From the NCBI RefSeq assembly GCF_023016265.1, contig NZ_CP095412.1, positions 682,001 through 746,000 on the forward strand: a stretch of 64,000 bases of DNA. The letters run 5' to 3'. Source of the DNA: Blastococcus sp. PRF04-17 (lineage in GTDB: Bacteria > Actinomycetota > Actinomycetes > Mycobacteriales > Geodermatophilaceae). Under the pieces are notes generated by a model. It was not told the DNA's origin, did no database searches, and saw only the letters and a list, made by a program, of their open reading frames with translations. Below, piece after piece: positions 35,000 to 55,491 of the stretch (its first letter is position 1; each line of letters opens with the position of its first letter). The position numbers and the translations under genes are program-made.

Positions 35000-36264
35000 G
35001 TGCTCTCCTGGCCCGCCCCCCTCCTGCCGACCCTGCCCGGGACCGGGCCCGCCCTCAAGCTCCACGACACCTCCCGCGGCGAGGTCGTCGAAACCAGTCC
35101 CGACCCGACCGCGCGGATGTACGTCTGCGGCATCACGCCGTACGACGCGACGCACCTGGGCCACGCGGCCACCTACCTCGCCTTCGACCTGGTGAACCGG
35201 GTGTGGCGGGACGCCGGGCACGCCGTGCACTACGTGCAGAACGTCACCGACATCGACGACCCGCTGCTCGAGCGCGCCGAACGCGACCGCGAGGACTGGA
35301 TCGTGCTCGGCATGCGCGAGACCGCGCTCTTCCGGGAGGACATGACGGCGCTGCGCGTGCTCCCGCCCGAGGACTTCGTCGGTGCGGTCGAGTCGATCCC
35401 GCGCATCGTCGCGCACATCGAGGACCTGCTCGACGAGGGACTGGCCTACGTCCTGGACGACGGCACCGGTGACGTCTACCACGACATCGCGCAGGCGCCG
35501 GGCTTCGGTGGCGAGTCCCGCTACGACGAGACCACCATGCTCCGCTTCTTCGGCGAGCGGGGCGGCGACCCCGACCGCCCGGGCAAGCGGCAGCCGCTGG
35601 ACCCGATGCTGTGGCGCGGCGAGCGGCCGGGAGAGCCCTCCTGGCCAGGACCACGCGGCACCGCGGGCGGCCGGGCTGGCACATCGAGTGCGCCACCATC
35701 GCGCTGGACACCATCGGCATGGGCTTCGACGTGCAGGGCGGCGGCAGCGACCTGGTCTTCCCGCACCACGAGTACTCGGCCGTCCACGCCGAGGGCCTGA
35801 CCGCGACCAAACCCTTCGCCCGGGCCTACGTGCACGCGGCGATGATCGGCCTCGACGGCGAGAAGATGAGCAAGAGCCGGGGCAACCTCGTCTTCGTCTC
35901 CCGCCTCCGGGGCGACGGCGTGGACCCGATGGCGATCCGCCTGGCGCTGCTGTCCGGGCACTACCGCACCGACCGCGCCTGGACGACGGATCTGCTGCGG
36001 GCGGCCGAGGAGCGCCTGGCCACGTGGCGTCGCGCAGTGGCCCTGGACGCCGGTGCGCCCGCCGCTCCCGTGCTGCTCGGTCTGCGCGAGCGGCTGGCCG
36101 ACGACCTCGACAGCCCGGGCGCGATCGCGCACGTCGACGCCTGGGCGGCACGGACCCTGGCCGGCGGCAGTGATCGAGGCGGGGACCTGGAGGAGGAGGC
36201 GCCGCGCGTCGTGTGCGACGCGGTCGACGCGCTGCTCGGTGTCGCGCTGGGCGACGGCGGATGA
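35000..36264 (+). CDS. mshC: Cysteine:glucosaminyl-inositol ligase MshC, one frameshift
   Basis: GTG at 35000 ([14 protein letters not shown]). Class I aminoacyl-tRNA-synthetase-like fold: zinc Cys in [20 protein letters not shown] with the HLGH version of HIGH, and [10 protein letters not shown] in the second half. The frame breaks between EPSWPG and GRPGWHIEC (about 35640-35675); joined length about 421 aa, near the usual 410-420. It ligates cysteine to GlcN-inositol in mycothiol synthesis. WHIEC holds a zinc ligand and lies just after the break, so the break is more likely an indel error than decay. Confidence 0.92.
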
Positions 36265-52042: not shown

Positions 52043-53547
52043 ATGAGCGTGCGTCGGGTCATGGGCACCGAGGTCGAGTACGGCATCTCGGTGCCCGGGC
52101 AGCCGACGGCGAACCCGACGACCCTGTCCAGCCAGGTCGTGAACGCGTGGGCGGTGGCCGAGGCGCCCACCCCGCGGCGGCCGCGCTGGGACTTCGAGGA
52201 GGAGTCGCCGCTGCGCGACGCGCGCGGGTTCGACCTCTCGCCGGCCCAGGCCCTGGACCACAACGACCTCGACGAGGACACCGGGATGGCCAACGTCATC
52301 CTGACCAACGGAGCACGCCTGTACGTCGACCACGCCCATCCGGAGTACTCGACGCCCGAGGTCACCAACCCGCGTGACGTCGTCCTCTGGGACAAGGCGG
52401 GGGAGCAGGTGATGGCCGAGGCCGCTCGCCGGGCGGCCCGCATCCCCGGCCAGCCGGCGATCCAGCTCTACAAGAACAACACCGACGGCAAGGGCGCGTC
52501 GTACGGCTCGCACGAGAACTACCTGATGGACCGGCGGACGCCGTTCATCGACATCATCCGCGGGCTCATCCCGTTCTTCGTGACCCGGCAGGTGTTCGCC
52601 GGCTCGGGGCGGGTCGGGATCGGCACGGAGAGCCGCACGCACGGCTTCCAGCTGTCGCAGCGGGCGGACTTCTTCGAGGTCGAGGTCGGGCTCGAGACCA
52701 CGCTCAAGCGGCCGATCATCAACACGCGGGACGAGCCGCACGCCGACGCGGACAAGTACCGCCGGCTGCACGTCATCATCGGCGACGCCAACCTGGCCGA
52801 GCTGTCGACCTACCTGAAGGTGGGGACGACGTCGCTCGTGCTGGCGATGATCGAGGCGCGGGCGCTGCCGCGCGACCTGCAGATCGAGGAGCCGGTCGAG
52901 GCGCTGCAGGCGATCAGCCACGACCCGACGCTGAGCCACAAGGTGCGGCTGCGGGACGGCCGGGCGATGACCGCCCTCGAGGTGCAGCAGGTGTACCTCG
53001 AGCAGGCGGAGAAGTTCGTCGCGACGCAGGGGGAGGGCGACGAGCAGACCGCCGACGTGCTGCGGCGCTGGGCCGAGGTGCTCGACGACCTGGCGATCGA
53101 CCCGATGCGCTGCGCCGACCGGCTGGACTGGCCGGCGAAGCTGCGGCTGCTCGAGGGGTACCGGACCCGGGACGGGCTGTCGTGGGGGGACTCGCGGCTG
53201 TCGCTGGTGGACCTGCAGTACTCCGACGTGCGGCCGGACAAGGGCCTCTACAACCGCCTCGTGGCGCGCGGGTCGATGCAGCGGCTGCTGACCGACGACG
53301 AGGTCGCACGGGCGATGGTCGCGCCGCCGCCGACACCCGTGCCTTCTTCCGCGGCGAGTGCCTGCGCCGGTACCCGGCGCAGGTGGCCGCGGCGTCGTGG
53401 GACTCGGTCGTCTTCGACCTCGGCCGGGAGAACCTGGTGCGCATCCCGACCATGGAGCCGCTCCGTGGCACGCGCGAGCACGTGGGGGCGCTGTTCGAGG
53501 CGTCGGCGACGGCGCAGGAGCTCGTCGACACCATCACCGGCGGGTGA
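52043..53547 (+). CDS. dop: Depupylase/deamidase of Pup (Dop), one frameshift
   Basis: ATG at 52043. Glutamine-synthetase-like carboxylate-amine fold: [20 protein letters not shown] (ATP/Mg), [15 protein letters not shown] with the catalytic Asp region, the long Dop loop near residues 40-75, and [22 protein letters not shown]. The frame is lost near 53333 (CCGCCGCCGACACC, one base missing); the other frame gives [19 protein letters not shown] to TITGG and the stop at 53547. Joined about 501 aa, normal for Dop. It deamidates Pup-Gln and removes Pup from substrates. Confidence 0.95.
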
Positions 53548-53633
53548 TCACCGACCGGTAAGGGTGACCTTGATTGTCGGTATCGGCGGGTACCTTCTGC
53601 TCACGAGCAGTTCCGTAGACCGGAGGGCAAGCG

Positions 53634-53841
53634 ATGGCCACCAGGGACACCGGCGGACAGCAGAAGGCGACGCGCTCGCGCGAGGAGACCGACGAGGTCG
53701 AGGCCTCGGTCGACACCGAGGTCGCCGAACGCCACAAGGAGATGACCGAGGACGTCGACTCGCTCCTGGACGAGATCGACGAGGTGCTCGAGGAGAACAG
53801 CGAGGAGTTCGTTCGCCAATATGTACAAAAAGGGGGAGTAG
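53634..53841 (+). CDS. pup: Prokaryotic ubiquitin-like protein Pup with rewritten, out-of-frame 3' end
   Basis: ATG at 53634 with GGAGGG upstream. Disordered acidic Pup with the helical Mpa-binding region ([19 protein letters not shown]) and the conserved [10 protein letters not shown]. The last codons from 53811 (GTT CGC CAA TAT GTA CAA AAA GGG GGA) end mostly in A/T, whereas the rest of the gene is nearly all G/C-ending. In the given frame the protein runs on to 54050. The canonical ending is present one frame away: GGG GAG TAG at 53833-53841, that is Gly-Glu-stop. Two extra G in the A5G5 run, or a -2 slip, would yield QKGGE-stop. I set the end there. Tags proteins for the proteasome via the C-terminal Glu. 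Confidence 0.9.
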
Positions 53842-53875
53842 AACTCCCTAGTTCTGTAACTATCGCCCTGCGGAA

Positions 53876-54637
53876 ATGGAACCCGAGAAGTTCTGCCCGG
53901 ACTGCGGGGAGTCGCGCCCCGTCGCGTCCTTCACCCGAGACAAGCGCCGACGTGACGGCTTGGCGTTCTACTGTCGCGAGCATTCGCGTCAAAGGTTGCG
54001 GGAGTCGAAGGCGCGGCGCCACGGGCCGCCTCAAACCCGCCACAAGCTAGACCGTGTCGTACCTGAGGGATCGAAGTGGTGTCCCGATTGCGACACGGTC
54101 AAGCTTCAGGCCGAGTTCCCGACCTCCAAGTACAACAAGTCTGGTCGGCACACCTACTGCAAGCCCTGCCACAACGCCCGAGGCCGCGCCACTCTGGAGA
54201 GGGTGGGCGGGGCACGGACATACCACCTCAAGCGTCGGTACGGCATCACGGCTGAGGACGCGAACGCGATGCTCGAGGCGCAGGGTGGACTCTGTGCCAT
54301 TTGCCGGGCAGCCCCGGCAGTACATGTGGATCACGACCACGTGACGGGAGCTGTCCGTGCGCTGCTGTGCTTCAACTGCAACGGGGGTCTCGGACAGTTC
54401 AAGGACGATCCCGCCGTGTTGCGTGCCGCGGCCGACTATGTCCAGTTCCACATCCTCAGCCAGCGCGTGGTCGCTCTGGCTGCGGCCGCTGGTCTCGGCC
54501 CCGTCCGACCCATCCGGCTGGGTGAGCCGCCGGTAGGGTCGCAGCGACGCCCAGGAACGCACAGCACCAGCACGCGGACCACCGGGCGGAGCAGCGGTTC
54601 ACGCCGGCGCGAGCAGGCGGGAGAGGCGGATGGGTGA
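53876..54637 (+). CDS. Endonuclease VII-type HNH nuclease inserted between pup and prcB
   Basis: 253 aa, ATG 35 nt after the canonical pup stop. Zinc modules: CPDC at 7-10 with C33; CPDC at 69-72 with CKPC at 95-98; and the catalytic endonuclease VII module CAIC at 140-143, VDHDHVTG at 151-158 and CFNCN at 165-169. Codon use (CGT, TGT, CAA, TTG, CTA, GTA) is less G/C-ending than neighbours, a sign of transfer. After residue 195 the tail is low-complexity and may be read-through of the old pup-prcB spacer. Its TGA overlaps the prcB GTG. I infer a free-standing homing endonuclease targeting the pup 3' end. Confidence 0.88.
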
Positions 54638-55491
54638 GCGAGCAGTCGAGCGGCCGGAGCGGGTTCCCGCCCGCGTACCTGGACCGGGTGGGCTCCTCGT
54701 TCACCGACTTCCTCGCGGCCGCCGCGCCTGACCTCCTTCCCGGCCGCCGGCCCGCCCCGCAGAGCCACGTGGGCGACATCGGCCCGCACGGCACCACGAT
54801 CGTCGCCGTCACCTACGAGGGCGGCGTCCTCATGGGCGGCGACCGGCGCGCCACCATGGGCAACCTGATCTCCAGCCGCGACATTGAGAAGGTCTACCCC
54901 GCCGACTCCTACAGCGTCATCGGCATCGCCGGCGCCGCCGGCATCGCGATCGAGATGGTCCGGCTCTACCAGGTCGAGCTCGAGCACTACGAGAAGATCG
55001 AGGGACTCACCATGTCCCTCGACGGCAAGGCCAACCGCCTGGCGGCGATGATCCGCGGCAACCTCGGCGCCGCCCTGCAGGGCCTCGCCGTCGTCCCGCT
55101 GTTCGCCGGCTTCGACCTCGACGCCGCGCCCGGCGTCAGCCCCGGCCGCATCTTCAGCTACGACGTCACCGGCGGGAACTACGAGGAGCGCGGCTACGCG
55201 GCCGTCGGCTCCGGCTCCCTCTTCGCCAAGAACTCGCTCAAGAAGACCTGGCGCGCCAATCTGCCCGCCGACGAGGCCACCCGCACCGTCGTCGAGGCCC
55301 TCTACGACGCCGCGGACGACGACTCGGCCACCGGCGGGCCCGACCCCGTCCGCCGGCTGTACCCGATCGTCTACCGGGTGGACGAGGAGGGCGCCGTCCG
55401 GCTCACCGAGGCCGAGGTCGCCGCCATCGCCGACACGATCGTCACCGAGCGGGCCGAAGCCGACCGCCAGAACATGCCGCGGGAGGCCTGA
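54634..55491 (+). CDS. prcB: 20S proteasome beta subunit PrcB
   Basis: 285 aa, GTG start overlapping the nuclease stop (GTGA). The propeptide of 53 residues is removed before Thr54 in [16 protein letters not shown], the N-terminal nucleophile. [27 protein letters not shown] and [16 protein letters not shown] follow the Ntn-hydrolase pattern. Forms the inner catalytic rings. Six nt before prcA. Expression now depends on coupling to the inserted nuclease or on an internal promoter. Confidence 0.97.

Follow-up and report, generated by a model that had tools for sequence, protein, structure and literature searches.

Linkage of a putative homing nuclease gene to synonymous recoding of the pup 3' end in Geodermatophilaceae and other Actinomycetota

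The window, by which we mean the whole 64,000-nucleotide stretch of contig NZ_CP095412.1 of Blastococcus sp. PRF04-17 analysed here, raises the question of why an endonuclease gene sits between pup and prcB, and why the last codons of pup change character just before it. An earlier note on this DNA had proposed that a homing nuclease rewrote the end of pup and spreads by copying itself together with the recoded tail.

The pup-prcB locus and its nuclease gene

The genes at this locus run in the order dop, pup, nuclease, prcB (Table 1). Direct reading of the window gives the tail codons of pup as GTT CGC CAA TAT GTA CAA AAA GGG GGA; the codon switch starts at 53811, as the earlier note had it, and its last codon ends at 53837, one base short of the end that was given (53838). 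The endonuclease VII-type gene reported between pup and prcB is likewise there, as an ORF at 53876-54637 that matches Pfam Endonuclease_7 with an E-value of 5e-26. The TGA of this ORF overlaps the prcB GTG at 54634, an overlap that had been read as wiring the nuclease into proteasome expression. The overlap holds in the window, but we rejected it as functional coupling because it is found in only 27/73 loci, a count for which the prcB start was placed by a fixed offset that is plainly mis-estimated in five loci (G040, G041, G042, G045 and G046).

Table 1. Coordinates of features at the pup-prcB locus of the window
Feature	Position	Strand	Remarks
pup body	53634..53810	+	host-like codons; Pfam Pup E 7e-28
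Recoded pup tail VRQYVQKGG	53811..53837	+	left end of the putative cassette
Spacer after pup tail	53838..53875	+	in relatives, varies with nuclease subtype
Nuclease core	53876..54460	+	DHHRN/Endo VII nuclease domain and two CxxC zinc-ribbon-like modules (by eye from the alignment)
Nuclease ORF, 3' part	54461..54637	+	length and stop differ among species
Conserved box CGCCGGTAGGGTCG	54528..54541	+	upstream of prcB; common to type A and type B loci
prcB, right flank	54634..55491	+	no linkage to nuclease type

The window pup has no stop after its GG codons, and the frame continues to 54050, giving 138 aa. The nearest relative, Blastococcus tunisiensis (G038; NZ_FOND01000014.1), has two extra bases (GGGGG-CC-AGTAG) and a normal GGQ followed by a stop; the window pup reads past GG because these two bases are absent (53835-53851). 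Comparison with 70 kb of the same relative revealed further frame breaks in the window, the clearest being those in dop (53329/53332) and, near 35667, in another gene; both genes are single open frames in B. tunisiensis. Given these other breaks, and given that the assembly is a single contig at 95.9% completeness, the missing pup stop is probably an assembly indel, which is likelier than a broken pathway; if the pup and dop breaks were real, pupylation would be broken in this strain. A programmed frameshift in the window pup, where AAAAAGGGGG looks slippery, was rejected since relatives have an ordinary stop and the window has other frame breaks.

The zinc cysteines of the nuclease (C140, C143, C165 and C168) and four of its nuclease residues (D152, H153, R161 and N169) are invariant in 34/34 aligned sequences, drawn from 75 intact loci; a fifth nuclease residue, H155, is present in at least 90%. 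A stricter active-site/zinc pattern fits 65/75 intact loci. Among solved structures, Hpy99I is the closest in sequence (E 7e-15, residues 65-191); the match to T4 endonuclease VII (E 2e-9) covers the nuclease domain only (profile positions 125-177), and a PADLOC type II restriction model also matches the protein (E 2.9e-8). Values of dN/dS were 0.05-0.24 in the 25 closest nuclease pairs, 13 of which have dS >1, and the median over 117 pairs was 0.15. This excess of synonymous over amino-acid change argues that the nuclease protein is under constraint, and hence used now or recently. We rejected a homing endonuclease borne by a group I intron, as a search of 53500-54800 gave no Rfam match with E up to 1.

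The recoded tail and nuclease are not peculiar to the window's genome but are widespread in its relatives. Among 112 genomes of the same family, with Blastococcus, Geodermatophilus, Modestobacter, Klenkia and Trujillonella represented among the named loci, a nuclease match was found in 99, although some matches are weak or lie at other places. Pup was found in 104 of these genomes, the eight without a pup match being left out, and 98/104 loci carry a DHHRN/Endo VII-type nuclease or its remnant after pup. Types were assigned with one type A query and one type B query, the two types being about 40% identical and the window nuclease belonging to type A. By best match, 69 loci are type A (56 intact), 29 are type B (19 intact) and six are neither, with G001 and G005 placed under A, the 65-residue remnant G032 under B, and G070 (a contig end) and G004 (type C) among the six. 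We call a nuclease intact if it is in one frame without a stop and has at least 165 residues matched, which does not imply activity; no ATG, GTG or TTG precedes the match in 5/75 intact loci. Three loci (G060, G073 and G079) have prcB nearby and no nuclease. The gene thus behaves as an optional free-standing gene: the pup-prcB interval may hold it intact, hold it in decayed form or lack it.

Across the class, 63/394 sampled genomes have a nuclease match at E <=1e-8, and the best 28 of these 63 matches, besides those of the window and G023, all lie directly 3' of pup (L195-L222). Named genomes, some of them also in the family set, were scanned as well, and 31/33 relatives there directly follow pup. 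The pup-adjoining relatives include those of Actinoplanes, Actinomadura, Pseudofrankia, Streptomyces and an Acidimicrobiia MAG. Full-length relatives in phages, among the best 15 of 1822 records, reach at most 36% identity over 95% of the query.

By eye, three family loci (L074, L077 and L078, from G001, G004 and G005) have a third, more divergent nuclease type at the same site, and two of the three have CAA AAA in the pup tail.

Pup tail codons and nuclease type

In the 56 intact type A loci, 3.9% of codons -58 to -25 of pup end in A or T, bearing out the description of the rest of pup as G/C-ending, compared with 73% of V, 88% of Q and 84% of K codons in the terminal YVQKGG. This switch is far beyond chance, and the A/T signal climbs over about the last 20 pup codons. 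In the 19 intact type B loci, the corresponding values are 2.5% at codons -58 to -25, 0% at Q, 5% at K, 63% at V and 74% at the second G. Both types therefore depart from the codons of the pup body, at partly different codons.

The difference between types is sharpest at Gln and Lys. CAA occurs in 59/69 type A loci and 1/29 type B loci (Fisher 5e-15), and AAA in 56/69 and 2/29, respectively (Fisher 3e-12); within-genus permutation gave p<=5e-5 for both codons. Removal of G001, G005 and G032 changes the counts to 58/67 against 0/28 for CAA and 55/67 against 1/28 for AAA. Since type B keeps CAG AAG (18/19 intact loci), the recoding goes with the nuclease type and not with the presence of a nuclease; the expectation of identical recoded tails wherever the nuclease is present fails, and the GC-type Gln and Lys codons of type B count against a homing cassette. 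Linkage of third bases to type, expressed as z from within-genus permutation, is absent at pup codons -60 to -25 (mean z -0.02, maximum 1.8), climbs from about codon -22 to a peak of 31 at Q and K, and is again near zero in prcB (mean 0.02, maximum 3.7 over 205 variable codons).

The few nuclease-free family loci give a mixed picture, which counts against a homing cassette: G079 has CAG AAG, G060 has CAG AAG after GTA, and G073 has CAG AAA. Broken type A loci kept CAA in 10/13 cases, an observation that counts against a homing cassette. One counterexample is G071 (L126): its pup tail is recoded, yet neither a nuclease nor prcB was seen within 2.1 kb; the genome is 74% complete.

For Streptomyces, we compared 70 loci from 110 genomes with pup, a non-random set made up of the 30 best-scoring loci and 40 listed by hand. 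A full or near-full nuclease, defined by a summed score of at least 165, is present in 26 loci, a lower-scoring remnant in 32, and no nuclease in 12. AAA occurs in 15/26 loci with a full or near-full nuclease and in 0/44 with a remnant or none (Fisher 1e-8); the remaining 11/26 have AAG, which counts against a homing cassette. Ten tree pairs split into 4.9 in the same direction, 0 in the opposite direction and 5.1 with no difference (median p 0.06), reflecting few events, and the scatter of nuclease presence over the tree is weak, with 17 changes compared with a mean of 21.3 and a minimum of 15 after shuffling; both results count against a homing cassette.

In the class as a whole, a hand count found CAA AAA in 16/63 genomes with a nuclease match and in 11/331 without (Fisher 1e-7); in this count the match may lie away from pup, for one of the 16 (G480) the nuclease and the tail come from separate contigs, and the window is scored as lacking the pattern, its pup stop being missing. 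The 11 genomes with CAA AAA and no nuclease match count against a homing cassette; eight of them have a size of 2.3 Mb or less. The looser pattern CAA AAR was rejected as an indicator of the nuclease across the class because CAA AAG is common in family f8, in which only one sampled genome has a (weak) nuclease match; this too counts against a homing cassette.

Replacement of tail and nuclease, and its boundaries

We used prcB, the gene next to the nuclease, as the sole host marker for the family; six loci without a prcB match were left out of the tree and five loci are short pieces. The A and B labels change 24 times on this tree, as in shuffled data (mean 24.2, range 19-28), while the 10 genera need 11 changes. 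By contrast, on the tree of the 75 intact nucleases the A/B labels change once and the genus labels 32 times (shuffled mean 45.6), compared with 10 genus changes on a prcB tree of 73 of the same 75 loci. Of 16 independent pairs taken from supported branches of the family prcB tree, about 12 show tail and type in agreement and 0-1 show them at odds (median p 0.0005).

Four sister pairs carry different nuclease types. Their pup sequences at -200..-66 are 98-100% identical and the 5' parts of prcB 96-100%; their nuclease DNA is 56-58% identical. In the pair formed by G064 (type B) and G044 (type A), with prcB 97.4% identical, a single base, in codon -17, differs over the 63 codons from -65 to -3 (the first three being upstream of the start), so that the 14 codons before the first tail difference, at codon -2, contain none. 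Six of the eight codons from -2 to +5 then differ (R, S, V, Q, K and the second G), all synonymously, the Y and first G codons being alike. From left to right, identity in this pair is 94% upstream (-470 to -200), 100% in pup (-200 to -66), 89% in the last 22 codons, 58% in the nuclease DNA, 90% in the leader and 100% in the 5' part of prcB. This break in similarity corresponds to the one expected near 53811, and places the left boundary of the exchanged block at the pup tail. In the pair G103 (type A) and G085 (type B), all eight tail codons differ, one of them changing R to K, and the upstream differences are confined to codons -3 and -11; the other two pairs agree broadly, with few scattered upstream differences. 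In these last two of the four pairs, the leader before prcB has diverged (25-27% identity), which counts against a homing cassette.

That sister species with near-identical pup bodies and prcB genes have different nucleases and tails indicates, from the alignments, that pup tail and nuclease have been replaced repeatedly as a block. With the type-linked tails and the prcB-tree pairs, the sister pairs uphold the idea that tail and nuclease travel together. Even where the hosts are closest (23 pairs with prcB >=0.955), the nucleases have a median identity of 65%, and only 17% of pairs exceed 85%. No recent cross-genus transfer was seen (best cross-genus nuclease identity 80%, prcB 91%), and this too counts against a homing cassette. 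In the relatives, the tail constitutes a foreign C-terminal end fused in phase to the host gene; the window pup is without its stop.

On the right, box CGCCGGTAGGGTCG shows no linkage to nuclease type, and the boundary of the putative cassette probably lies before it. The C-terminal 55 or so residues of the nuclease ORF are therefore probably read-through into host leader DNA. In appearance the box resembles a promoter element; prcB may accordingly be transcribed from a promoter of its own, 3' of the nuclease core. We rejected a displaced native pup end downstream of the nuclease: a search with one model tail gave a mean score of 9.08 (n 95, maximum 14), compared with 8.66 (sd 1.42, maximum 17) for shuffled sequence.

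Candidate mechanism, rival explanations and precedents

Our best reading is homing by cutting of the pup end, with a probability of roughly 0.6 that the nuclease is a free-standing DHHRN (Endo VII-motif) homing endonuclease and that the mobile unit is a cassette of pup tail plus nuclease. The cassette would comprise the last 8 to about 20 codons of pup and the nuclease gene. The enzyme would cut the pup 3' end of an allele without its own cassette, and repair from the cassette-bearing chromosome would copy in the nuclease together with a reworded tail. The new tail would encode nearly the same amino acids and differ at synonymous sites, such that pup stays functional and the new allele escapes recutting; nuclease types with differently reworded tails would displace each other at the one site. 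We infer the cutting, the immunity and double-strand-break repair as the route from sequence comparison. More tentatively, and with the balance tilted somewhat against it, the pup 3' end in Actinomycetota may be a battleground of rival natural gene drives that displace one another, in which a private rewrite of about nine codons would shield each cassette from its own enzyme and perhaps from rivals. The description of the target as essential is not supported, as a review reports that disruption of pupylation-locus genes causes no significant growth change in standard culture (PMC3511204).

The main rival, which we consider unlikely, is that ordinary homologous recombination swaps the alleles of a long-standing balanced polymorphism, or of a locus that diversifies for competition or defence. 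The tail would then be the mere edge of a heterologous block, exchanged without self-directed cutting. This explanation fits the scrambling of A and B among hosts, and it fits nucleases that are deeply diverged and show no recent transfer across genera; trans-species alleles whose flanks recombine would lead one to expect both. Against it, the pup-side edge of the exchange between G064 and G044 is reached within about 17 codons, and pup is identical from -200 to -66; the type A tails stay alike although 13/25 of the closest nuclease pairs are past a dS of 1; and decayed and absent nucleases are frequent.

Two weaker rivals assign the tail or the enzyme another role. The A/T-rich tail might be a cis-regulatory element for the nuclease gene, with codons kept for expression and not for immunity, whether through translation coupling, through AAAAAGGNGG as a Shine-Dalgarno-like sequence or through opening of the mRNA. 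The stretch AAAAAGG is similar to a ribosome-binding site, and the restriction of AAA to full or near-full nucleases among the 70 Streptomyces loci points the same way. We nevertheless regard this role as improbable: in type B a comparable gene follows a tail with GC-type codons, the first possible starts lie 8-39 bases past the pup stop and are missing in the five intact loci noted above, and GGA, the best Shine-Dalgarno fit, is used in only 5/56 intact type A loci. Alternatively, the nuclease could be a restriction-like or anti-phage enzyme related to Hpy99I, the recoded tail removing its self site in place of a methylase, as the Hpy99I and PADLOC matches would allow; the location of 31/33 named-genome relatives at one chromosomal site is odd for a general restriction enzyme, and gives this role poor odds. 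That the A/T-ending codons were left behind by a low-GC donor or by local mutation bias is very improbable and already disfavoured by the contrast between types, for although the type A nuclease, at 67% GC, is below the ~70% of much of the flanking host DNA, type B has nearly the same GC (68%) without these Gln and Lys codons, and the block differs at once between sisters.

A homing cassette of this kind has its closest precedent in gene-end elements of fungal mitochondria. As described in passages of PMC3630166, such mobile ORFs occur at atp6 in Allomyces and in atp6, atp9, cox2 and nad3 hybrids in Glomus; as with the pup cassette, the endonuclease ORF brings along a C-terminal end for the host gene, foreign but largely synonymous, in exchange for the native end. 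They differ in being mitochondrial, in encoding LAGLIDADG or GIY-YIG enzymes and in having the native end still downstream (PMC3630166). The pup cassette, in contrast, would be on a bacterial chromosome, with several nuclease types at one site and no relic found.

That a protein with the Endo VII motif can be a free-standing homing endonuclease is illustrated by F-CphI of cyanophage S-PM2, which shares with the pup-linked nuclease the Endo VII catalytic residues and a free-standing gene adjoining its target gene, according to the parts of PMC6083498 consulted. Site-specific cutting by F-CphI has been demonstrated; F-CphI belongs to a phage and its immunity comes from an intron in psbA (PMC6083498). 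For the pup-linked nuclease, with no Rfam match, immunity would instead come from synonymous codons. The free-standing Seg and Mob endonucleases of T4 are also intergenic and spread with co-conversion of flanks, and one can replace another, SegH and Hef taking the place of MobC and MobE (passages of PMC2988022). The T4 enzymes cut hundreds to thousands of bases from their own genes, unlike the close site proposed at pup, which counts against a homing cassette, and those passages of PMC2988022 do not describe a recoded host-gene end.

Home-and-rescue synthetic gene drives, engineered in insects, carry a recoded, cut-resistant end of the target gene. The pup cassette would share the recoded end of the target gene, and would be natural and bacterial; if the battleground reading is true, it is a natural bacterial counterpart of such drives. 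In open-access literature on pup, prcB or the proteasome together with endonuclease VII, HNH or homing, we found no earlier description, subscription papers falling outside this search; an endonuclease term did not occur in the pupylation papers checked, and the passages of Streptomyces reviews that came up concern WhiA.

If homing at the pup end is correct, a homing nuclease on a bacterial chromosome occupies the end of a housekeeping gene and spares that gene through synonymous rewriting. This would account for the recurrence of such genes in the pup-prcB interval of many Actinomycetota, and selection unconnected with pupylation may then act on synonymous sites in the last codons of pup. The tails of rival types would be a ready-made set of predicted cuttable and uncuttable sites, opening target choice, self-immunity and drive-against-drive competition to direct testing.

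Two minor features of these loci deserve mention. After the pup stop, 14/56 intact type A loci, from five genera, have AGATCA(T/A), and 14/56, from four genera, have CCATTC or ACATTC. Each of the two is clustered on the nuclease tree, and none of the 19 intact type B loci has either motif, making them possible binding or recognition half-sites; two of the four post-stop motifs tried showed no clustering on the nuclease tree. In family f32 of the class, two loci (L206 and L215) have a pup-linked ORF with two nuclease units in tandem, which suggests duplication or stacking of the cassette.
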